DNA from: Polytrichum commune
Lineage: Eukaryota > Streptophyta > Polytrichopsida > Polytrichales > Polytrichaceae
Reading direction: 5' to 3'
Assembly: GCA_950295325.1 (NCBI GenBank)
Contig: OX485806.1
Span: 33,170,001 to 33,234,000, forward strand
DNA: 64,000 nt
Below the pieces are notes generated by a model that saw only the letters and a program-made list of their open reading frames with translations, was not told the origin of the DNA and ran no database searches. The position numbers and the translations under genes were made by a program. Every line of letters starts with the position of its first letter. Within the stretch, counting starts at the first letter, position 1. Shown piece by piece: positions 1,427 to 64,000 of this stretch.

Positions 1427-2412
1427 AGAGTTATCCGTAAAGTCCCTCAAAGAGCGAGGGAACCATGGGTTTGAACCTTTTTTGAGAGAACTTTCTAGTA
1501 ACCCTTAACTTTCTAAGAGGCCATTTCTTGACTTATGAATTTTTGAAGGCATACTCATCCAAAAGGAAGGTGTTAGGAGGGTCACAATTGGTATCATTGT
1601 GTTCCTCATGAAAGTTTCTTGGCAATGATGTCGATCTCATTCCAATATATAAAGATGGGTGTTTGTGATAAAAATTTAAAGTTAAGAATGAACTATGTTA
1701 TCCGTTTGTTGATAAATGACTAAATATTGTATCTCCATATTATTTTGACTAAAAATTATCAGTTTTTTATGGACTTTTTTTCCTACCTCGAAGTGTATAT
1801 TTATCTTTAATATAAGCTTGAAAGTTTAGAATATAATTCTATTGCATATATTTATCACAATTTCTTGAATTCTAATGATTTTAAATCGATTATGAGCAAT
1901 TTCTAAAAAGTATCCAATATTGTCAACATATTGATGTGATCTTAAAAATCATCAGCAACATCTCTTCTTTAGGTATAATAAAGAATTGCGCTCTAAAAAG
2001 CTTACTTTTTTAGATGATCTTATGAAACCACATTACGCTTCATGTAATCGTAATGTTATGAGTTAAAAGCATGTTAGCTTATCATGTATTGGAGCCTATT
2101 TTAAAAGTTGGGTGCAAATTTTGGAACCTCCTCTTTGCACCTCTCATACTTTGAAAGAATTTCAAATTCTAAAAATAAGGCGTGCGCATGGGACCCGCTG
2201 CCCTAAATCTTGGATCGACCTATGCAAGATAGCTTGGCCCACTCATCCTAGTAAGACAAGCTAAAAGATTAGTTTTCAATAGTATGACACCACTCCAAAT
2301 GTATGATAAATTTAACCAGTAAGAAAATTGAGTAACTTTGTGTTAATTGTGATAAATTCAAGGTTTGAAACTAAACCCATGGTTTCATCTGCTTTACTTT
2401 ATGAATAACTAT
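1427..2412 (+). repeat. Dispersed ~1-kb inverted-terminus repeat (family E), copy 1
   Basis: It begins AGAGTTATCCGTAAAG and ends with a diverged inverse of the same motif (TTTACTTTATGAATAACT). The whole ~980 bp is clearly similar to 39853-40833. Partial copies lie at 3135-3561 (opposite orientation) and 33845-34065. There is no coding capacity. It is probably a non-autonomous DNA transposon; no clean target duplication could be picked out. Confidence 0.6.
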
Positions 2413-3134
2413 AATCTAAACCCGATTTTAACAAGTATCCAAGAAGAACCCTGCAACAATGATTCTATGTGGATGTTTGGGCCCATGGGTTCAAGACAAC
2501 ACTATTGATTAATATTATAAACACATATGTCCACAAGACCATTTAAGGGTGCAATCCTAAAATGAATAGTCATGTGGGCCCATGATAAGTGTCAATGTTA
2601 CTTGTATGCATGTGCCCAAGTTGATGCTTGTATGCATATGATAGTAAAATAGAAAAACGGAAAGTGGTGAAGATAAGTTGATTCGGCTTGAAAATCGTGC
2701 CATGTATTTTAGAGGTGGAGTAGAGGAAATGATGAGGAATGCAAGTTGTTTCAAAATTTTATTCCTTGTAAATAATTAGTTGCATTCTCCCAAAGAGGTA
2801 AGTAATTCAAACCACCTACTTGTACGGTAGAGTCTCCCCAATTTTGGGCATCAAAATATCTTACTTTGCATACAAATGCATACAAATGCACATAAAACAG
2901 TTTAGTCAATGGCACTCAAAAGTGATTTCAAGTGGTGTGAAACAAGACCTATTCAGCCAATCACTGCATCCTTTTTGGGCCACCACTTTTATAATTAACC
3001 ATTTTGGATCCACACAATAATGATTTTACTCCTAGTCTAGTGCATCGATAGTGACCATTCACTGTCTTATGGTTTTCCACCTTAAACATAGTCTTGTAAG
3101 TTGTGGTTTTGGGTTGACTTATAGGAAGGACAAT
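2413..3134. other. Unassigned spacer between two family E copies
   Basis: AT-rich DNA without a convincing gene or repeat. The short open frames here have no recognisable product. Confidence 0.4.
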
Positions 3135-3561
3135 AGAGTCATTCATAAAGTAAAGCAGATGAATCCACGGATTTATAAGTCTCAAACCATGAGTTTATGA
3201 GATTCAACACAAAGTCACCCAAGCTTCCTTAATGCTTAATTTATCATGCACAAGGAGCGGTGTTGGACTAGTGAAAACCAACTTTCTAGCTTGTCCTACT
3301 AGGATGGGTGGGCCAAGCTACCCTTGCAAAGGCCGATCCGAGATTTAGGGCAACGGCTCCAATGTGCACACCCTTTTATTGATCTTGAAATTCTGCCAAA
3401 GTTTGAGAGATGGGAAGACGAGGTTTCAAAATTTGCATCCAACTTTCAAAATACGCTATGAAACACAATGAGCTAGCGAACTCTTAATAGAATTCTTTCT
3501 CGAAGAAGGATCAAACCTACGGTTTCATCCCTCCTTTTTGAGGGTCTTTACGGATAACTCT
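3135..3561 (-). repeat. Family E, internally deleted inverted copy
   Basis: Its ends are AGAGTCATTCATAAAGTAAAG (left) and CTTTACGGATAACTCT (right), the family E termini in reverse. Only about 430 bp remain of the usual ~1 kb. Together with copy 1 it makes an inverted pair spanning 1427-3561. Confidence 0.6.
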
Positions 3562-3600
3562 AAGAGGTTGGTGATTTTGGTGAATGTTTGCTGGATAATG

Positions 3601-3708
3601 CTTGTCCTCTTTTTCTTTTTCTTTTTTTGAGACAGAAGGCCGACATGCCAACGTCAAAGCACAGAAGGCGGTTGACCACCTGGCAAGTTTTCCATCAAGT
3701 AGAGAGGA
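3601..3708 (-). mobile_element. SINE-1 fragment, 5'-truncated
   Basis: On the minus strand it carries the SINE-1 body (CTCTCTACTTGATGGAAAAC, GTGGTCAACC, CTTTGACGTTGGC) followed by an A-rich tail (TTTTTCTTTTT on the plus strand). The tRNA-like head is missing, as expected of incomplete retrotransposition. The full-length relative is at 32530-32735. Confidence 0.6.
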
Positions 3709-3941
3709 TAATGCTTGTCCTCTTCACCGGTTGGATGGCATCGGGTCCCGAATTCCGATCACCACCAATATACATAGTAATCAAATGAGCACCATCCACC
3801 ATGTAGATGTGTGTGTTTGTTGCTCACTTCATTTTAGGTGGAATTTGATTGGGTGTTGATTGGTTGCCATTATCATTGTCACGGTTCCATACAACACAAC
3901 AAGATGTTGGCAATGGAGTCATATTTTCTATTAAGGTCCGA

Positions 3942-4301
3942 GGGTGTTATTCGCTTCGTTTTTCTTGTTCTTCATCTTCTAGTAATCTAATTCATGTTTT
4001 CAAATTTGTGTTGCATTAGCAGATTTATGATTCAACATTAACAATGACCATTTTAAAAATTGAACCTCCCTTGCTTTAGTTATGGTTATCAAATGTGCAT
4101 GTTTGTTGATTTCTTAACAAAACACATGAGTCCTCTCAATTGTGTTCACTATTGAGTGCGGTGTAGTTGATTTAAGTTAAAAACGTAGTCCAACTTCACT
4201 TAGGTATGTGTCTTTATATTGTTTGTTCTTGGATCCTCATCTAACTACACACCAATCAAATTTGGATGTTCGATTAAGAACAATAACCAAATAACACATG
4301 C
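3942..4301 (+). mobile_element. MITE family B copy (GTGTTATTCGGTT termini)
   Basis: It starts GGTGTTATTCGCTT and ends ACCAAATAACACATGC, an imperfect inverted terminus. The interior matches 9159-9512, 5503-5844 and, inverted, 43233-43560. Shared internal landmarks are TGTTGCATTA, TTTAGTTATG, TGAGTG..GTAGTTGAT and GTAGTCCAA. It has no coding potential. Confidence 0.65.
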
Positions 4302-5502
4302 ATATGTTAGGTATACGACTTGTAGGGCACTTCCAACTTCGCATGCAGTTTTGATTGTTGGATCGGATTGGGAAATCTTTCATCCAATTAGCAATTGCAA
4401 ATCACAAAGATTGTTATATGTAAGTTCCAAAGTTGTAGTAGAGATACAAAGTTATGATAATCAAAAGTGGTGATCATTTAAGATACTCTTAAAGGTATCA
4501 CACAAGCCATTACCAATCATAACTCTATTTGAGTAAATCTAGACATGTTTTAACCGGGACTTTTTGGTTAACTCAATTTCATGGTAGATTTTGTCACTCT
4601 ACACTTCTAATGTATCTAAATTTAGGAAGAAGCATGTGAATTCTTAATGAAGCTGAATGTTATAATATCAAAATATAATGACATACAATCAATAGATAAA
4701 TAATGACAATGTAAACTAGACCTTCCTTTTTCATAAAATCGTAGTCAAGTTAGATATGTAACTTTATTTGGAAGATCTTACCATAAAACTAAAGATTGTT
4801 AAACTTTGGATTGGAACCTTGATCAAGTTATGAGTTTTGTGTTTACTATCGAACTTAGTTGGTGGCCACATTCTAAGCTCATAGTCCGATCCCATCACAC
4901 TACAAGTCTTGTTATATACCACTCAAACATAGGCGTTCAATTAACCCCTAAAGTAAGAGGGGATATACATGATAATCAAAGATGTAATTTAAAGTGTGGC
5001 TTGCTGGCTTAATTTGGAGTTGAAATATAAAAAGGTAGTTGTTGAGGATGATTAAACCGCATCTATATGGTTGGAATCAAGGTAACTATGAACTAGTATA
5101 TAGGAAATAAATTTAAGAACATTTTCCTTCCAAAAAAAGACAACAAATCTCTATATCATCAAAATTATGTAAAATATGTCTCGATTGATTATAATCATGA
5201 GTTCAATCATATGGTGGAGAAATAACAAGAGATTTCGAGTCCATAACCTTATTAGTTTTCTTATTAAATAAATTTTGTAACAAAGGCAAAAAAAAAAAAA
5301 AAAAAAAAACCATGATGTTTGAACACTTCAAAATCCATAGAAAAAAGTTAGTAAGAAATTCTTACAAAACAATTGACAAAGGCAATTTGTAACTTTACAA
5401 GTAGAGAAAACTTATCTAAAAATAGGCGTATTCAATTGCTCTTAAGTTACTTCAAAAAACACATGTAACCCAATTTGGATTGAACTCTCCTTTAAGACAT
5501 GT
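4302..5502. other. Gene-free AT-rich spacer
   Basis: I see no gene. A poly-A run of about 22 bases lies at 5288-5309. Parts of 4740-5000 resemble the family B interior but are too diverged to bound. Confidence 0.4.
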
Positions 5503-7687: not shown

Positions 7688-8330
7688 ACATACAGGCCTG
7701 GGCTACATCACATCTTCATTCGGCTGGGCCCCGCCCCTCCCACGTCTCCTTCACTGCCCGGTCTTCCTACGTGGGAACTCTTCCTTGTTGGGAACCAATG
7801 TGACGATACTTACATGACCGGGCACTTAATGGCTTAAGTGACTGGGTATTGTCACATTGGTTCCCAACGGGGAAGAGTTCCCACACAAGTGTGGGCATGA
7901 AGACCGGGTAGTGAAGGAGGCATGGGAGGGGCAGGGCCTCGGGGGGGGGGGGGGGGTAAGTCATTGGTTGGAGTAGCAATATACGTGCGAACAAATGATA
8001 GGGTATTTAAAAAACATGGGGGCAAAAAAATATAAATGGACTTAAGAGTAATATAGGGTATCAAAAATGGCAATGGACATCTTTAAAGTACTATAGGGTA
8101 TGGAATAATAGGTAATTTGGAATTATAAGTAATGCAAGCCATTTTTCTATTAACCCAAAGTAGAAATTTACATAATGATAGCATGTGAAAAAAAGAAGAG
8201 AATTGAAAGTAATACCCCCCTTATAAAATAGTGGTTGTTCGCACCTATATCCTTAATTTTTTAACACACTGCCCCCCCCCCCGAGGGCAAGGCCCAGCCA
8301 AATGAAGATGTGATCTAGCCTAGGGCATAC
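7688..8330. mobile_element. Complex foldback element with nested inverted repeats
   Basis: The outer arms pair 7692-7728 (GGCTACATCACATCTTCATT) with 8300-8328 (AATGAAGATGTGATCTAGCC). A second inner pair joins 7728-7806 with 7852-7941 (GGGAACTCTTCC / GGAAGAGTTCCC, GGGAACCAATGTGAC / GTCACATTGGTTCCC). A poly-G run of about 16 bases follows the inner arm and a poly-C run of about 12 precedes the right outer arm, so these tracts are also complementary. No transposase is present. Confidence 0.6.
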
Positions 8331-20781: not shown

Positions 20782-22249
20782 CGCATAGCTTTAGCATCAA
20801 GTGTGGATGTCACCAATTCCGTGATTCAAGACAACAAGCTTGCCATACAAAAGTATTGATGCATGCGAACAATGAAGCGAACCATGTAGAGTTTGAACCG
20901 ATGTTGGACTCGTATCGTTTATAAATTTTTATTGTCTTTATTTTTATTACCATTTGGGTATCTATGATGAGGATTTCATATGTTTTTGATACCTAAAGAA
21001 TATGTATGTTTGATAGTGTAGGTGTTCTTGGTACCATTTAGGTGTACAAACCATGCAAGGACCTTCAACCTAGGCAAAATTCATCCTAATATTAATATGG
21101 TTTAGAATGGCAATGACTCAAATAAGAACTTAGGTATACGAAGGTTGCCTCACCTTGACATATCTATCAAATATCAATATTTGACTACTGTTATAAGTTC
21201 GAGATTTATGGGTAGGTTCTTTGATAGCTTTGATATTGATGTTAATTATTGATACCCATGCATCCACCTATATATTGGTCCAACATCGGTTTGAACATTA
21301 CATAATACATGATGGACATCATGTGAACCTTGACAACTAACAACAACCTCAATAAAATAGTGGTGTTCATATCAAGAACCCAATTAAGAACTCATATCAA
21401 GATGGTTTAGGTAGGACGACCCAAACATTAGACCATGTTGTTGTGGTCCATATATTAATTTGAGACAAGAGAAAGTCTCAAATTAACGAATATAGTGATT
21501 GATGTTTGATCATACATTTGCTAACATAACACAAACATTGAGAGGCAACTAAGCTTATCAATAGACAATAGAGAAGAAGAAAGACTAATTGAATAACACT
21601 TGCATACCTCATGCACATGTACATTTAGACCTAAATTGTGCAAGTTGACTGGACGCCTACAAAGAACAAACTAATTGACTAGCAAGGTAGGTGGCGTATA
21701 GATGGATAATTTTCTTTGAGCACCACTTCTTGTAGGTCACAAAACATGCAGTTAGTGCAAGATGATTAGGGTGCAAGCATGGTCAAGTGGACCAAAAAAA
21801 ATGCTTTGGTATACTAAATCTATAATTTTTTGGTCAAGTGGCTGAAAAGTAGTAGCAAAATGTTGTTTAATTTTTTTTTTAAAAACACTTTATGGTGCCC
21901 TCTATTGTTGTGTCATGTACTCAAATATAAAATATAAAGTTGAGAGTCTCAAATCTTATCAGTAGAAGTAATGCTCAAAAGCAAATGGCCAATTTTGTTT
22001 TGACAAATTTCATGACCTTAAATATTTTGAAATTGGAATGCTTTTCATATTTTTTGAATTCGTTATAAACACAAGGAAATGTTAGAAAATGTATAAAACT
22101 ATTAATTGTATGTAATTTTATCCTAATCAAACAAAATTTAGCAATCGCTTTATGAAAGTGAAGATTCTTGTGTTAATTACCTCCCCCCCCCCTTTCCCCC
22201 CAAAAATCATACCGACTATTCAACCCATAATGACTAGCATATGTTGAGC
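20782..22249. other. Gene-free spacer with a family A scrap
   Basis: No gene seen. 21665-21780 is a reverse-oriented partial family A copy (GCAAGGTAGGTGG ... AACATGCAGTTAGTGCAAGATG). A poly-C tract lies at about 22182-22190. Confidence 0.4.
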
Positions 22250-24831: not shown

Positions 24832-26487
24832 CTTACTAGAATAATTGGCATTCGTATTTGCAGAGAGTGAAACTAGACCCACTATGAATGCACATAAGCT
24901 CATCAATTATGAACTAGAATGTGATCTAAGCAATTCTTACATACCTACTGAGGAGAAAATTTGAAGTATTCTTGATGAAAGACATGATGCGGTTGACAAT
25001 AATCCTATTGAAGGTGTTGAGAATGTGCAAATTGGTGACGGGGTAGATAAGTAGGATTCAAGGAGAGGGGAGCTAAGACATGAGTGATGAATGGTGAGTA
25101 ATGAGCGGCGAGCAATAATACATGAGTGTTGAAGCCAAATTAGGTAAATATGCATGGTTTACGAACACTCTAAAATTGGCACTCATTTGATTGTTTTTTT
25201 CCAAGTTTACAACATTATGAAGGAAAACAAATATAGGGCCCTACTATCATAGAGACTGAAGAAAACAATTAGTCCATTGTTGATTTTTACTATAACAATG
25301 CATGCCAATACAAGTCACTTACAAACATCATAAACACACGTTTGAACACATCACTTGGAGCATCACTCATTCCCTACAACACCAACAAGTTCAAGTAGTT
25401 GCATGACCTCGTTGTAGGTGAACATTGGGGTGTGAATGAACTTATCATTGTCGTTGTCCACCTTGGGTAAAAATCTAAACACATAATATAGACGTTTGCG
25501 GTACACCCATTTCCCTCTCTTTCTCAAAGCCTAAGGAAACATTTTCGTGAAGTCTAGGCATGTACAATGCGGGATGTCACCGATTGTGACATGTTAGGAA
25601 TTGTCCTCCTCAGAATTAATGTTGATTTTCACTCCGAACCCATGATATGGAATGGCAGTGTCTCCAACCACGTAGTAATCCTCCACGAGTCTAGCATTTT
25701 GCAAATTCTTTTTGCGATCCCATGTGGGTGTAGCTGGATTGCAACACGTTACCTTTGAGAACCTGGAAGTTGGTGGGCATCCGAGTTTGGGGGTACACAA
25801 AAATGAGATTGAGGGATTGGGAGTGTCACAATTATTGAAAGCATGTGCCGCAGCTAGAGTGCCTGCCTCTATTGCAATTGAAACATGGCATCTTCTAGCA
25901 CCGACACCTCTTCCTTTGAGATATTCATACCTATCTTCACCTCACCATGTGGTGGGAACTATAGGCCATTCCACCACTTACTTCTTCTTGCTTCTTCTCA
26001 CACAATGCTTGATATCGTTAGGGCAAAACCAAAATTGCACTCTATATTGTTGGTAGAGCGGAATTCCTTCTTTAATCCTTTGTAAGTTGAAGCAATAGTG
26101 TCATGCTTGCTAAAACTGACTCTGGCATTGGCTTACATTGCCCAACATCTTTTGGCTAAGTTAAGGGACAATCTAGCAACGTGCCATTGTGAAGTAGGGT
26201 AGTTTGTCTCTAAACATGTTGTGGTATGAGCCACACCATGCTCTACATAATTCAAAAACTCCTCAATGCATGTCCTTTTAGATCAACCATTAGGGCGAAG
26301 GATTGAATAATTAACTTTGTTGGGTCGATGTGAGTCATGATCGGCACCAAATGGCAAATCTAACTTCCATTTAGTGGACCTAAATAACTTTGAGCCCTCC
26401 AACGCAAAATGTCTAGTGTTAAGATCTTCTACCCGAGAAAAAACTTCATTGCATCTATGAGAATCTTTGGATCTCCACACCTCATTG

Positions 26488-27887
26488 CTCGGGGGTGCAC
26501 TGTACTAAACATGTACGAGTATACGTGAGTGCACAGGAGGGGTATTGATTTGGACCTTGCCGTATTACGTATACATATGGTATACATGTTATAATTTATA
26601 GTTACGTACATATATGGAAGGCCTTTAAAAAATATACAATAATTGTACTTGTATGGTACTGTTACTATACTACATATCATAAGTTTTCATATTGGATGAA
26701 ATTAGGATTAACTAGGATTAACGATTTTCGTTAGCAACCTTATAGGGTAGTATGAACCATGTACAAGGTGTCAAGGTAATATCAGGGAAAGAGGCAGTAT
26801 TAAGGTTTTGAAATGATTCGTTCAGCTCAAAGTAACAAATACCCTTTTCCCCTCCCATCCCTAGGTTTTGTTTTCTCTTTTTGTCGGGTGCTGAAGGTTT
26901 TTGTTTTCTCTTCTCGCATAGCCTGCTTCTTTTGCCGACAACTGCTTCACTTTTCTTTCTTTCACCTGTTGCTTCCAGCGCTTCTCAGCGTCCCTGCGGT
27001 TACTGCTACTGTGGGAATCACCAAAAGTCTTGACATTGTCATGGGCTCGTTCTGAAATTCCCTCTCTATCAAATGCAAAGTCAGTTGTGGCTTATGTAAC
27101 GGTAGGGGAGTCTAGAATTTTTAAAAGTACACTTGTTAATCAATTGAATGGCAAATTGAATCCTTCTTTGTCTAAAGATCGGTTGACTCGAATTAAATCT
27201 GGCATATTATATATGAAGCCTAAACTCCCGAGTGTTGGAAACCATGACACTTTGTTAAAGCTTGGTTGTGACTGTGGTGTGTGTTTTTTGAACACACCTG
27301 AAGCTAAAATTGTGAAAAAACGAGGTAGGCCAAAAAAATCTACTCGAATTAAGGTTGGTTTGTTGGGAGAGTTTATAGGATGCGGAGGAAGTTTGATAAT
27401 CGTTGGGTGGAGTATAGGGATCCAATTGACTTGATGGACCGTCCATCAAATGTGGAGATTGGTTTATGTTGGTATCAAAAAATGGCTAACAACAAGTGGA
27501 CATATGATCTTACTGATCATTTGATGGTAGACTTAGAGACAATAATTGCATTGGCTACAATGACATATATTGGTGAATCAAATGTTTATGAGTTACATCC
27601 GGGAGATGAAAAAGTTTTCAACAACTTTGCTGATGAAAGCTAGGATATTTTGTTATACATATTATAGAGGTTGATTGTTGTTCAAAAGTATATTTGTATA
27701 CTTATGTTAATGACTATATATGAATGGATGTTTTTTTTGTGTATACATATTGTCACTTGTATATTTATTGTTGCAATTGTATGTGTATTACTTCATTTCA
27801 CAAAAAATAACTTGTATATAGGGGGTTTTTAGAGTATGCAGTGAACGCACGTGATTCTAGGTTTTAATGAAAGGTGCACCCCCCGAG
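26488..27887 (+). mobile_element. 1,400-bp nested transposon, 8-bp TSD, cargo ORF
   Basis: The ends are CTCGGGGGTGCAC (26488-26500) and the inverse CTCGGGGGGTGCAC (27874-27887). A perfect 8-bp duplication CCTCATTG flanks it (26480-26487 and 27888-27895). Removing the element and one duplication restores CACACCTCATTGTAGCCTTC, which aligns without gaps to the homologous position in transposase copy B at about 63546-63580, so an empty site exists. An 8-bp duplication suits hAT, P or some MULE elements, but CTCGGGG termini are not typical of hAT. The superfamily is unresolved. The interior carries a broken reading frame (see next entry) and no recognisable transposase. Confidence 0.85.
26813..27643 (+). 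pseudogene. Unrecognised cargo protein frame inside the 1.4-kb transposon
   Basis: From about 27066 the frame reads AKSVVAYVTVGESRIFKSTL, SKDRLTRIKSG, LKLGCDCGVCF and an AT-hook-like KKRGRPKKS. A one-base frameshift near 27350 is followed by GWFVGRVYRMRRKFDNRWVE, YDLTDHLMVDLE and a stop after FADES at 27643. Upstream (26813-27029) is a CT-rich, leader-like stretch whose frame is different. The basic AT-hook motif suggests DNA binding. I do not recognise the family and see no DDE triad. The clean 3' end and single frameshift suggest it was coding recently. It could be captured host sequence or the accessory ORF of an undescribed transposon family. Confidence 0.6.
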
Positions 27888-28522
27888 CCTCATTGTAGCC
27901 TTCAATTTCAAAAATATCAAATTAGGGTCTTTACTAGTAGATCCTACTTTCAACCATGATTTATAATTTCTAATATGCATGAACGCATGGGTCAAATTGT
28001 CGATTGTCGATTTGTACATGCAAGTCATCTTGTTGCAACCACTTGTTGTGCACCATCTCTCCAAGGTTACATGTTGGCATCTCCACACAATCATCTATTG
28101 TCATATCATGTAAACAACACACAAATGTTGCAAACCTTGGACAACTGGAAAAATAAGTATAATTAACCAAAAAAAAATCAATACATTTTAGGGAACAACT
28201 ATAGTTAACTAGAAAATTTTAAGACCATATTCAAGAACAAATGCAGTTAACTAGAAATATTTCAACTATTATTATGTATTCAAAGAAGTTCGCCTCTTAA
28301 TTTGCTTCAGTTAAGAGTCTTTGATATGCTTGGGCCACTAAGGGCCATCAAGAAATGCCTTTATACGGTCACTCACAACGTTGGGCTCCGGAACAACCTT
28401 CATGTATACCACCAACAGATAGATAGAAACTCCAACCCCTTTCAAGCAAGGGGCCGGCGTGAATAAAGTGTCCGTTCGTAATGCCAATGACCCGATGCCC
28501 ACTGGACAAGGGGACCACGGGG

Positions 28523-28926
28523 AGGTCACTTCATTGTCAAGTTGACACCACGTGCGGACAAAGTTTGCTACCCCTATATTACATGCCATATCTAATTTTA
28601 AAATTTATGATATTTTTTCTACATATACATAACCATTGATAGTATGTTTTGTATACTTTTTTGAAACTTTTAGTCATCTTTATTTTTTTTAGTAATTTTT
28701 TTAGTTCAATTCTGTGTCATTCTAGTTAGAAATGGTATGTTTTATGAAAAAAACAAATCATCAAATTTAGTTACCACTTTTGACTATGTCATAGGTACTA
28801 TGTATATCTACTCATGAAAAAAAATTGATAAAATTTTGACCCATTTTGGTGGTGCAACTTACCAAAAGAATATATTTTTTGGTCGCACGTGGTGTTCAAC
28901 TTGACAATGGAGTGATCTACCCGTGA
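28523..28926. mobile_element. Inverted-arm element in the copy A intron
   Basis: TCACTTCATTGTCAAGTTGA plus CACCACGTGCG at 28527-28560 is inverted at 28882-28920. The same arm motif (GATCACT ... CACGTGCGRC) occurs inside the 177-1298 element. Confidence 0.55.
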
Positions 28927-29024
28927 AGGGGACATTGGGACAAATACTACTCTCCCCTTTCGAGGATGGACACTATAGTGACACACTATACAAGTTCCTA
29001 GCTAGCCACTAGTGCCTTGAAGAT

Positions 29025-29205
29025 ACTGGACATGGTATCCCCCAAAGGGCTTTGAGGTACCCATACAACAAGGTCCAAGGACCCCCCACCATAGTTGGGT
29101 GGACTAAGGTGGTGAGCACCACGCCGGCATGGGGAATAGAACCCACAACCTCCTCATTGGGGGCCATGAGCCCTAACCACCAAGCCAAGGCCCGTGGTGC
29201 CTTAC
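29025..29205 (-). mobile_element. SINE-3, tRNA-derived
   Basis: On the minus strand GGCCTTGGCTTGGTGGTTAG forms a good box A (TGGCTTGGTGG) and, about 35 bp on, GGTTCTATTCCC forms box B, one base off consensus. The spacing fits a tRNA-like Pol III promoter. The tail runs through GTCCACCCAACTATGG to GTATCTTCAAGGCACTAG. Only one copy is in the window. Confidence 0.65.
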
Positions 29206-31546
29206 CACCAACACAAATAACACACTAATGACACTACAACGCTACAACAAAAATTCCATGAACCGACTGTGCTCAACTTTAGTTCACTAGATATATATAA
29301 CTCTAGTTAACTAGATTTTTTGACAGAGTGAATTTAGAACAACTATAGGTAACTACAATTTTTGGCAAGTAAAATTGCGCACAACTATAATTACAAAAGA
29401 CAACTAGTTAACTAGTAGTTGAATTAGTTGGTTGGTTGTCCAAGGTTTGAAATGTTGTATATTTCTTAGATTTCCAAAGAAAACATCATTCAAGAGTTCA
29501 TTTTAGTAATGAATTTGTAATAAGCATATGGCCACCCCCATTGCCTGTAACGGAAGTGCCAAAACTCCAACCACTTAAAGAGACCAAAAATACCATCTTT
29601 TGTTGCAGTGTTGGATTATAACCACCATGATTGAATCACGTGATATCTAGTCTCAACTTCATTCATCATTTGGGCGTCCTTGTAATCCTTGCACCATGTC
29701 ATGTGCTAAAATTGTAATGATGGTTTGATATACTTCCGGATCGTTTATCCAAGTTCGATGACCAATGAAAAAGACATGTATATTCACGACCGATCATGGG
29801 CAAAATGGGACCTTTACCTCCATAGACCTTCCTGACTACATTGCAATTTGTTTGGGTATTGTCTATCATGCAACCTTTGAAGTTTATAATTGACACTTCA
29901 TTCTCTGCCATGACATAATTTGAGTTTTTCTATACCAAAGTTTAGGTTGCGCCATATTTGGATTGCATGTCACAACACACAATCATCAAAATCTTACAAT
30001 AAGGTAGAGGATGCTAAATCCAACACCCCATCCAAAACCAACACCTATAAACGCCTCCCAATTGCCAACACTCTACAACCTTGAACCGTACCCGGCAGTG
30101 TAGGAGTGTCTAGGCCCACGAAGTGACGGTTTTAGGTGCCATTAGTGGTGCCACCTCATAGTGGCCTCCATGACCTTCATGTAGGGTATGTAACGGGCTC
30201 CACTCTATCTCGGGTTGGTTCAAGGTGGGATTAGGGTGGCTTGTCAATGCCTATTCTAGTCATTCTATTCACAACGCCAAGGAGGTAGGCCCATAAAGCA
30301 CAAAAGGGTCATTTCCCGGGATGCAAAGGGGGTCGGTTCCCGGGATGCAAGGTGATGGTTTTGCAAGCGAACCGGGAGGGATCATGGAGGTAGCCGTGTG
30401 GCTTTGCATACCATTACTACTTGGGCTTTGATGTAGTTTGGGTCTAGTACCCAGCTATGTTGTGTTGGTTCTAGGCAATGAAGGTGGGGGTCCTCATCAT
30501 ATGCGAGGTTGCCATACACGGGACCTATAATTTGGTATAAGGAAGCTAGTAGTTTTGACTTTGAATATTCATCAAATATTCAATTGAGACTAAAAATATT
30601 TTTTCTTTCTTGATGCCTATGTTTAGCCCAAAGGCTAATATGAATATATATTTTATATATCAACCACATAGCCATATGTATGTGCAATAGCTTAAAGTGT
30701 TGGTTTAAGCACCCTCTACCTTACTTATCGTCATACACATGACATGCTAGGGTGGTCCAATCCTTCAACAGTTTGACATGGTCGAACATTATCCACAAAT
30801 TCTCCATGTCTCCCCCGACATGCACTTGCTTCACAAGGTCCACACCACTCCCTGGAAGATCCACTAACATTTCAACAAACACTTTGTCTTTTCATTACCC
30901 AAAGAACATGTTACCCTACATGCAATTGAAACCCGAATGGTCTTTGAGCACCATAATACATTGTGTTCATTATACTACGTACAAAATGCTTTGAACTCAA
31001 CATAAAGCTATGACAATTTGGAGAGGCTATAGTACGAAGTTTATCCAAAACCACCTCCAAAGACGAACATGTCATGTGATGGTCTTCACCATTTGATGAA
31101 GATTTAAGAAGATAAGTTTGCCAATAATTGTTTACTTGTTGTCATTACTATAGCAGAGTGCTTGGCAATGGGTATTTTCATAACCTCATTAACGACACAT
31201 TGATAAGCCATATCCAATAACTCACGGCGTGTGTCATTAGAGACAATGCGATCATGCATACCCAAATGAATACAAGCCATGAAGATCCCATGGTTTGTGG
31301 GAATGGACATATAGTATGCGAGCATGACACAAAACAATGCACACAAGTGTAAAATGGTATATCTTACACTCCAATGTGGATTTAATTGGGGCCTCACTTC
31401 CAACAAGAAATGTGGTTCTATTTTGCTAATGTTTTCCCGTGGATTATTTGGAAGACGGGAATGATTTTAGTATTTAATAAGGAGAAATGACCTAAAAAAG
31501 CCATGGTCGTCGTGAAGCAAGACAACCTTGATGTGTTTGATAGGAG

Positions 31547-62429: not shown

Positions 62430-64000
62430 TAACACTCAACAATGTCAGCCAGCTCAAGTAGTCACATGACCTCCTTGTAGTTGTATGTTGGAGCATGAAT
62501 GAACTTGTTGTTGTCGTAATCTACCTTGCATAAGAATTTGAACACGAAGTAAATGTGTTTGCAGGTTACCCATTTACCTTTCTTTCCTAAAGCCTAAGAA
62601 GACATCTTCATGAAGTCTAGGCAAGTGCACGATGGGATGTTGCCAATTGTTACACAATAAGCATTGTCCTCCTTTGAGACAATGTTGATGATAACTCCAA
62701 ATCATGGATAAGGAATGGCAATCACTCCAACAACACAATATTCGTCCATGAATCCAGTGCTCTTCCAATTGTTTTTGTGATTGGCCATTGGTGTTATTGG
62801 ATTTCATTGCATTGTCTTAGCAAATGTTGAAGTTGGGCGGAAGTCCGGGTTGAAGGCTTGTAAAAATGTGACCGAGGGATGGGGAGTTTTGCAATTGTTG
62901 AAAGCCTACAACAAGGAGACAATGCTTCCCTCTGCTACATTGGAATTCGACATCCTCCAGCGCCAACACCTCATCCCTCAACAAATTGGTGCCTATCTTC
63001 ATAGGCCACATGTTGGGTACTATAGGCCAATTCAACACATTCCTTTTCTTGTTGCCACTCACACAACATTTGATGTCATCATGGTAGAACCAAAGTTCAC
63101 ATTCCACATTGTTGGTGGAGCGGAATTCCTTCAACCCTTCATACATTGGTGCAAGGGTGCCATGTTTGTATGTTTTGACTTTTCCATCGTACAAAGTTCA
63201 TGTATTGGCCTATATTGCCCAACATCTTTTGGTAGATTTGGGTGGCAATCTTGCTATGCGCGACTGTGAAGGAGGGCACCCCGTCTCAAGCACCAATATG
63301 GTATGAGCCACACCAATTTCTTCTGCATTCAATGATTTCTTTAGGCGTTAACGAGTTGCTTGAGTCTTAGGGCGAGGAATGGAATAGTTAACCTTATTGG
63401 GTCAATGGAAGACGCAATCAACACTAGGTGGCAAGTCCAATGTTCATTTGATAGAACCAAACAACTCTGACCCCTCAAATGCACAATACTGGATGTTAAG
63501 TTTCTCTACCCTTAAATAACACCTCCTGCATCCACTAGTAGCTTTGGATATACGCTTATGGCAACAACCTTCAATTTCAAGGACACTAAATTTGAACCCT
63601 TGCCATTGGAACCCATTTTTAGTTGTGCTATGTAATTTGCAATCTACAAGAACACTCATATCAAAATATCCACTATCACTTTGTATATGCAAGTTATTTT
63701 GTTCCTTGACTATTGGACCAATTGTTGCGCACCATTTTGGCAAGGTTGCAAGTTGTATCTTTGCACACTCATTTATGATCATATCATGAATGCATAATTC
63801 TTGTTAAAATGGGATGCAAAACACTAAAAAAAACTATGGAATACAACATATTAACAACAACCAATGAATACAATTTGATAACCAAACATAAACATGGAAC
63901 AATTACTCACCAATAACATGTGACCACTCCATTGTCTAAATTGGAAATACCAAAACCCTAACCACTCAAAAAGTCCAAACAACCACTTTTGCAGCGCCAA
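62430..64000 (-). pseudogene. MULE-type DDE transposase with SWIM finger (copy B), cut by window edge
   Basis: Reading on the minus strand from 64000: an exon homologous to copy A 29.5-29.6 kb; an intron of about 105 bp with donor ATTG|GTGAGTAA (near 63912); then HDMIINECAKIQLATLPKWC, FQWQGFKFSVLEIEGC, FRSTNNVECELWFYHDDI and WPIVPNMWPMKIGTNL. It ends with a SWIM finger: IPSCTCLDFMKM ... KWVTCKHIYFVFKFLCKVD, so the CTC...CKH quartet is intact. In-frame stops (for example TAG after KMSS, TGA after KEVM) and frameshifts show it is decayed, but less so at the finger than copy A. The 5' part lies outside the window. Confidence 0.65.

Follow-up and report, generated by a model that had tools for sequence, protein, structure and literature searches.

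Background

Transposon annotation in plants relies on models of a few terminal inverted repeat (TIR) superfamilies. MuDR elements make target-site duplications of ~9 bp, and Novosib elements, which are of green algal origin, duplications of 8 bp. Pack-MULEs and other gene-capturing elements hold, between their terminal repeats, mosaics of genomic fragments that include non-coding parts, and truncated repressor proteins are known from deletion derivatives of other elements. This paper concerns a 1,400-bp element in a 64,000-bp stretch of Polytrichum commune DNA (contig OX485806.1; the whole stretch is called the window below) and the lineage of transposons behind it.

In the passages cited here, a C/DxxH motif between the second D and the E defines a group of DDE/D cut-and-paste transposases comprising hAT, P, MuDR, Kolobok and Dada, of which Kolobok makes a 4-bp TTAA duplication (PMC9587614). 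Duplications of 8 bp are usual for hAT and are reported for Zisupton (PMC12730594); Zisupton and KDZ1 combine them with large elements (PMC12730594, PMC12810828), and KDZ1–3 of Cryptococcus bear inverted repeats of 139–241 bp. Drosophila P and zebrafish P-like elements likewise have 8-bp duplications, and the P element/THAP9 family has short inverted ends and internally deleted copies (PMC7776569). P elements are listed for land plants as well (PMC4438587, Table 2), and Novosib, a Repbase superfamily, is listed there only under “protists” (PMC4438587). Novosib is a DNA transposon with a DDD/E transposase (PMC9587614).

With high confidence, the element in the window is a non-autonomous, internally deleted copy of a TIR DNA transposon, in a genome of plant type, as its form and a DUF1295 gene suggest. 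A putative autonomous form would be 5.8–9.1 kb long and encode one very large transposase. The novelty lies in the lineage from which the element derives, which is large, has been active recently, holds host-like gene fragments and is recognised by none of the models searched. We read it as a cut-and-paste lineage, possibly of superfamily rank.

Boundaries and sister copies of the element

The element occupies positions 26488–27887 of the window and, on inspection of the sequence, is flanked by a perfect 8-bp duplication, CCTCATTG (26480–26487 and 27888–27895), in agreement with the 8-bp duplications of sister copies. Its left TIR (26488–26500, + strand) reads CTCGGGGGTGCAC, and its right TIR (27874–27887, − strand) reads GTGCACCCCCCGAG on the + strand. 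The usual family end, known from sister copies, is CTCGGGGGGTGCAC, so the window copy is one G short on the left. The original prediction had cited a gap-free empty site in a paralogous stretch at ~63546–63580. This stretch does align across the insertion point and contains the duplication once, although the alignment is diverged and interrupted by small gaps, among them a 3-nt gap adjoining the site; the stretch supports an insertion, yet provides no clean empty site.

The genome searched comprised 408 Mb in 64 contigs, and counts from genome searches on this assembly are lower bounds. The 1,400-bp query gave at least 43 matches, of 92–97% identity apart from its self-match, and 39 other copies were retrieved for comparison. 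End-to-end alignment, to within 3 bases of both boundaries, was obtained for 33 of the 39, and in 29 of these 33 the 8 bp flanking the extrapolated ends were duplicated exactly. An exact duplication also emerged in L018, L025 and L032 once the left end was shifted by one base, and L022 matched at 7/8 bases. Within the stretches first retrieved, L035 lacked the 3′ end and L039–L043 the 5′ end. Inverted ends and 8-bp duplications were thus found in independent copies, as expected of a TIR transposon, and the prediction of a discrete transposon with CTCGGGG termini and a perfect duplication was confirmed; the search that it proposed for full-length copies elsewhere in the genome was positive. An exact 20-mer (GCTCGGGGGGTGCACTGTAC, a G followed by bases 1–19 of the left end) occurred at 101 places in the genome and its reversed control at none; because the 20-mer requires a G before the end, left ends in the genome number more than 101.

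Target sites were compared in a set of 32 duplications, namely 30 exact ones, including that of the window, and those of two long relatives (L044 and L045, below); the four inexact duplications and other long elements were excluded. T stood at position 3 in 22 of them and G at position 1 in 14, and no palindromy was seen in the 32.

The 31 short copies aligned (30 plus the window copy) had a mean pairwise difference of 3.5%, and the window copy differed from its nearest relatives by 2.7%. Zero differences over 1,393 bp were found among L006, L007, L008 and L009, which lie on contigs C4, C3, C2 and C7, respectively, within four distinct duplications. Four identical copies on four contigs argue for recent movement of the element. 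Judged from its sequence, the 1.4-kb family has amplified recently.

Long relatives and their transposase

As first retrieved, five of the copies matched the window element solely over its final ~835 bp; ~10 kb around each revealed longer elements. The L044 element (L044:608–9755) is 9,148 bp long, with the ends of the window element's family and an exact 8-bp duplication (GTTTATTT); its frames, of 392, 260 and 796 codons, share a register. The elements of L045 and L046 are 3,047 bp (duplication GATGGCCA) and 2,982 bp (7/8 duplicated bases), respectively. No left end could be located in the retrieved pieces of L047 and L048.

Positions 1–392, 408–573 and 566–1400 of the window element aligned to positions 1–394, 377–541 and 2153–2982 of the L046 element, respectively. 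The window element is thus the L046 type minus ~1.6 kb, and the junction (27053–27060, + strand) holds an 8-nt microhomology, TGAAATTC, found at both sides of the missing stretch in L046. In alignments on the + strand, the 5′ terminal region (26488–26903) was 96% identical to positions 1–418 of the L044 element, and the 5′ interior (26904–27060) aligned with L045 and L046 up to their edge of deletion. Next comes an open reading frame (ORF) remnant of ~190 codons plus stop (27054–27643, + strand), identified by tblastn with the L044 frame and by sister-copy comparison. The 796-codon frame of L044 matched it at 85% identity over 27054–27368 (residues 603–705) and at 97% over 27356–27640 (residues 702–796), and in all five aligned relatives it corresponded to the C-terminal end of the lineage's own transposase. 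By these alignments the ORF is the C-terminal tail of a predicted ~1,450–1,520-aa transposase, left by internal deletion, a fossil and not cargo. The remainder up to the right TIR is a 3′ non-coding subterminal region (27644–27873, + strand), delimited by sequence and by comparison with short derivatives.

A genome search with the conserved region of L044 found at least 91 places, several of them in open frames of ~1,500 codons, with identity across the entire region falling as low as ~34%; the most distant retrieved relative, used as query, gave at least 98 places. Five further relatives (L049–L053) were retrieved from the transposase search. L051 has an element of 5,802 bp with perfect 14-bp ends (CTCGGGGGGGTCAC), a duplication TCTAGATT (transposase-strand reading) and an open frame of 1,549 codons. 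L049 and its neighbouring stretch form an element of 8,426 bp with an exact duplication (GTGATTTC) and an open frame of 1,518 codons, and L052 has one of 6,034 bp with ends CCCGGGGTGGCAAC, an exact duplication (CTCAGCTC) and open frames of 414 and 1,189 codons. From the first ATG of the conserved N-terminus, the proteins of L049 and L051 count 1,509 and 1,493 residues. A transposase of ~1,450–1,520 aa is predicted for L044, L049 and L051, between CTCGGGG-type inverted ends. The 414-codon frame of L052 (L052:2113–3354), the most distant retrieved relative, is a separate Cys/His-rich frame upstream of the transposase, with no significant Pfam match.

The window and ten long loci were scanned for CYCRGGG ends with at least 7/8 duplicated bases. 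The true offset yielded nine pairs, whereas five shifted offsets yielded none; the studied element was missed, its lost G shifting the ends.

Four motifs (AEDET, SDGD.RRR, QD..H.GKKL.NPL and GSD.CE.FFS) were invariant in all five aligned members, which were 35–72% identical to the first, and the spacing was D-119/120-D-42/47-DxxH-188/195-E. An invariant D, D and E with DxxH between the second D and the E was thus present in 5/5 members, a pattern that fits placement of the lineage in the C/DxxH group, without a superfamily name. The original prediction had proposed a search for larger copies that add a DDE transposase; such copies exist at 5.8–9.1 kb, their protein being likely DDE by its invariant pattern.

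In the catalytic region, 245 of the 429 changes between L044 and L053 fell at third codon positions. Comparisons of full-length relatives gave non-synonymous rates (dN) of 0.17–0.29; the synonymous rate (dS) was saturated and not computable in four of five comparisons, and in the remaining one, between the C-terminal domains of L044 and L053, dN/dS was 0.12. The third-position excess, dN and dN/dS point to selection on the protein, including its C-terminal domain, unlike the tail in short copies. The full-length transposase is under purifying selection.

Twenty left ends matching the exact 20-mer were chosen by hand (not at random) across contigs C1–C5. Ten had a matching right end within ~1.25 kb, giving elements of 702–1,147 bp, all ten with an exact 8-bp duplication; the other ten had no right end in the retrieved piece. 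The ten short derivatives retain ~205–350 bp of the 5′ part and 434–517 bp of the 3′ part with varying breakpoints, and the 1.4-kb type retains ~570 and ~835 bp, respectively. Short derivatives of the lineage probably number in the hundreds in this genome. A common flank, CTCCATAG, was seen in seven of the twenty left ends (L062, L063, L069, L071, L072, L075 and L079), which seem to represent a transposon copy amplified inside a larger repeat.

The protein would be a DDE/RNase-H-like cut-and-paste transposase that binds terminal and subterminal DNA, excises the element and inserts it with 8-bp staggered cuts. It could also mobilise deleted copies in trans; those seen retain ~205–570 bp of the 5′ part and 430–835 bp of the 3′ part, probably because binding sites lie there.

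Several points weigh against the reading of the element as a deleted copy of an autonomous cut-and-paste transposon. In L050 a 3′ end was present and no matching 5′ end was found, a convincing end pair was not found in the retrieved piece of L053, and the frames of the 9.1-kb L044 copy are split by two in-frame stops. The RNase-H-like fold and the identity of the catalytic acidic residues are suggested by an alignment of five sequences, and transposition and activity are deduced here from sequence alone. Relatives of the lineage were absent from the viral contigs and prokaryote genomes searched.

Relation to described superfamilies

The lineage may belong to hAT, P or Zisupton/KDZ, known superfamilies that make 8-bp duplications, as an ordinary member that has diverged too far for family models, and we rate the chance of this as close to even. 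Its duplications match in length those that are the rule in hAT and have been described in Zisupton (PMC12730594), as well as in P of Drosophila and P-like elements of zebrafish (PMC7776569). Its DxxH motif is consistent with hAT and P (PMC9587614). The distance from the second D to the E, 233–242 residues, is similar to the 228 computed from residues D303 and E531 of P transposase (PMC7776569), and like the P element/THAP9 family it has short inverted ends and internally deleted copies. The listing of P elements for land plants (PMC4438587, Table 2) also speaks for this possibility. So does a likely resemblance of the “SD..E.FFS” and “D..H” motifs to those of the P/THAP9 and KDZ type.

Against it stand the family searches. 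With Pfam, the long frames and the catalytic region gave chance-level rows only (Sushi, E 0.4; AT hook, 0.18; Angiomotin_C, 0.048; ZF-HD_dimer, 0.17; ANT, 0.25), with no match to hAT, P-family, THAP, KDZ, CxC or MULE models, although a diverged KDZ member would escape such models. The C-terminal domain gave AT hook (0.029) and DUF7911 (0.12), sub-threshold or single-member, and the ORF pieces of the window gave only a sub-threshold AT hook (E 0.2). No match to the lineage protein was found in NCBIfam, a prokaryote-protein library, and PDB searches by sequence or profile yielded nothing beyond chance (best E 0.45, unrelated molecules); with E allowed to reach 10, a profile of the catalytic region picked up no PDB chain of a P or hAT transposase. 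The hAT model PF05699, used as a positive control, found at least 150 places in the same genome, which makes the missing hAT match informative; hAT was rejected on this ground, and its ends are further set apart by CTCGGGG in the lineage. The KDZ model PF18758 and the P model PF21787 found nothing in the genome, but as no control genome matched either, this carries little weight and does not demonstrate absence.

Other features separate the lineage from each family. The first and second D are 119–120 residues apart, against 73 in P, and the C-terminal domain is without known relative and carries an AT-hook-like stretch in one subfamily. The transposase is about twice as long as that of P. Like Zisupton and KDZ1, the lineage includes large elements, but its inverted repeats measure 14 bp against the 139–241 bp of KDZ1–3. 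Neither MuDR (no MULE match, duplications of 8 bp) nor Kolobok (duplications of 8 bp and of varied sequence) fits. Novosib, compared by description only, has a DDD/E transposase, as proposed for the lineage, and like it makes 8-bp duplications. A BAH-like chromatin-reader reading of the C-terminal domain, suggested by its appearance, had no backing in Pfam or PDB and is not claimed. Among open-licence papers, no description of this element was found.

We propose only tentatively that the lineage is of superfamily level and lies outside hAT, P, KDZ, MULE, Kolobok and Novosib. It would be characterized by CYCGGGG ends, 8-bp duplications with T preferred at position 3, a transposase of ~1,500 aa encoded mostly in a single frame, a new C-terminal domain, recent activity, probably hundreds of short derivatives, and host gene fragments, and would be missed by Pfam-based annotation. 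The alternative raised by the original prediction, an element family with its own novel protein, agrees with a transposase unmatched in Pfam, NCBIfam and PDB as searched. The same prediction held that an ORF found to be a known transposase would make the family a described one; the ORF does belong to a transposase, but one that matches no model searched, so that “described” does not follow.

In either case, this 408-Mb genome holds a recently active transposon group with host-like gene fragments, at least 91 transposase matches and many short derivatives, the protein of which is unmatched by the models searched. Were the lineage separate, the eukaryotic DDE transposases would gain a branch; were it instead a plant offshoot of P, KDZ or Novosib, that family would gain a C-terminal domain and termini new to it. 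Activity of the group can be tested directly, since it has uninterrupted long frames as well as identical copies at different sites.

Fate of the transposase tail in short copies

The ORF pieces, an AT-hook-like GRPKKS (27324–27341, + strand; Pfam match sub-threshold only) and one frameshift, all described in the original prediction, are present in the window element. A one-base deletion near 27354 causes the frameshift and is private to the window copy, being absent from the other 30 aligned short copies; a 6-base insertion (27153–27158, + strand) is likewise private. An AlphaFold2 model of the window's 96-aa frame had a predicted local distance difference test (pLDDT) score of 40.8 and was used for no fold search.

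It is very improbable that the ORF of the 1.4-kb family is functional, for instance as a shortened protein that represses the full transposase. Several derivative types do retain the last 90–190 codons, and many copies in a score-ranked list are open, but this list is biased to intact frames and was not used for intactness rates. The tail frame is at least 188 codons long in 17 of the 30 other aligned short copies, and unique changes per site in the 31 copies are fewer in the ORF (0.21) than before it (0.30), though more than after it (0.14). However, relative to the majority over 191 codons, the unique changes in the 31 copies, chosen by DNA similarity, numbered 25 synonymous (neutral mean 29.2), 89 non-synonymous (86.5) and 9 stop (7.3); a stop change occurred in 15/31 and a frameshift in 5/31 (identical copies counted). 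Derivatives of other lengths, moreover, keep 3′ stretches beginning at varied points of the ORF, as expected if the 3′ DNA, and not the protein, is needed. The leftover ORF evolves neutrally, without detectable selection, and a functional truncated repressor was rejected on this neutral mix of changes.

An unassigned cargo ORF or captured host gene, as the original prediction had also proposed, is ruled out for practical purposes: the lineage does hold host-like DNA, with pieces of the 9.1-kb copy matching five other places, but the window ORF drifts neutrally and, by its tblastn matches and in 5/5 aligned relatives, represents the last ~190 residues of the transposase that the family itself encodes.

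Foreign DNA in the 9.1-kb relative

Between the 5′ end and the transposase of the 9,148-bp element, a mosaic of fragments (L044:1266–4922) matched five other genomic places. In element positions, 659–1026 matched contig C7 (96%), 1025–1182 C1 (92%), 1181–1460 C3 (93%), 1460–3717 C2 (97%) and 3759–4315 a second site on C2 (97%). Where the first four pieces meet, at three junctions, they overlap by 1–2 bp, and an additional short C1 match covers the remaining gap. This arrangement resembles that of Pack-MULEs, from which the lineage differs in having no MULE transposase match and duplications of 8 bp.

Within the first C2 stretch lie coding pieces of a DUF1295 gene, separated by non-coding DNA, and PF06966 matched two frames of the element (E 3.9e-28 and 1.3e-4). 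Closely similar DUF1295 frames lie at the chromosomal C2 place, with no CTCGGGG-type end within the 4.3 kb retrieved. We infer that the chromosomal places are the donors and the DUF1295 gene an ordinary host gene with introns. Parts of the mosaic recur in L059, adjoining transposase sequence, and the mosaic DNA has therefore been copied again. Both internal deletion and capture of foreign fragments may proceed via error-prone repair with short microhomology.

Other elements in the window and near L052

A 348-bp short derivative of the L049 subfamily of the same lineage was found by end scan and alignment at 7938–8285 (+ strand) of the window, with inverted CTCGGGG ends and a duplication of 7/8 bases (GGCAGGGC/GGCAAGGC). 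Its halves match both ends (~166 and ~164 bp) of the 8,426-bp L049 relative at 91% and 87%, and sister short elements occur in L045 and L048 (95% and 97%).

Two further candidates were seen in the window: one at 28131–29449, a few hundred bases from the studied element, with 10/10 inverted terminal bases (CAAACCTTGG) and an 8-bp duplication (AAATGTTG), and a short one at 20899–21288 with inverted ends CGATGTTGGA and an 8-bp duplication (GTTTGAAC). Beside the 6-kb element of L052, ~325 bp past its end, lies a 286-bp element (L052:8081–8366) with ends CTCGGGGGGTTCACT and duplication CCAACAAG.

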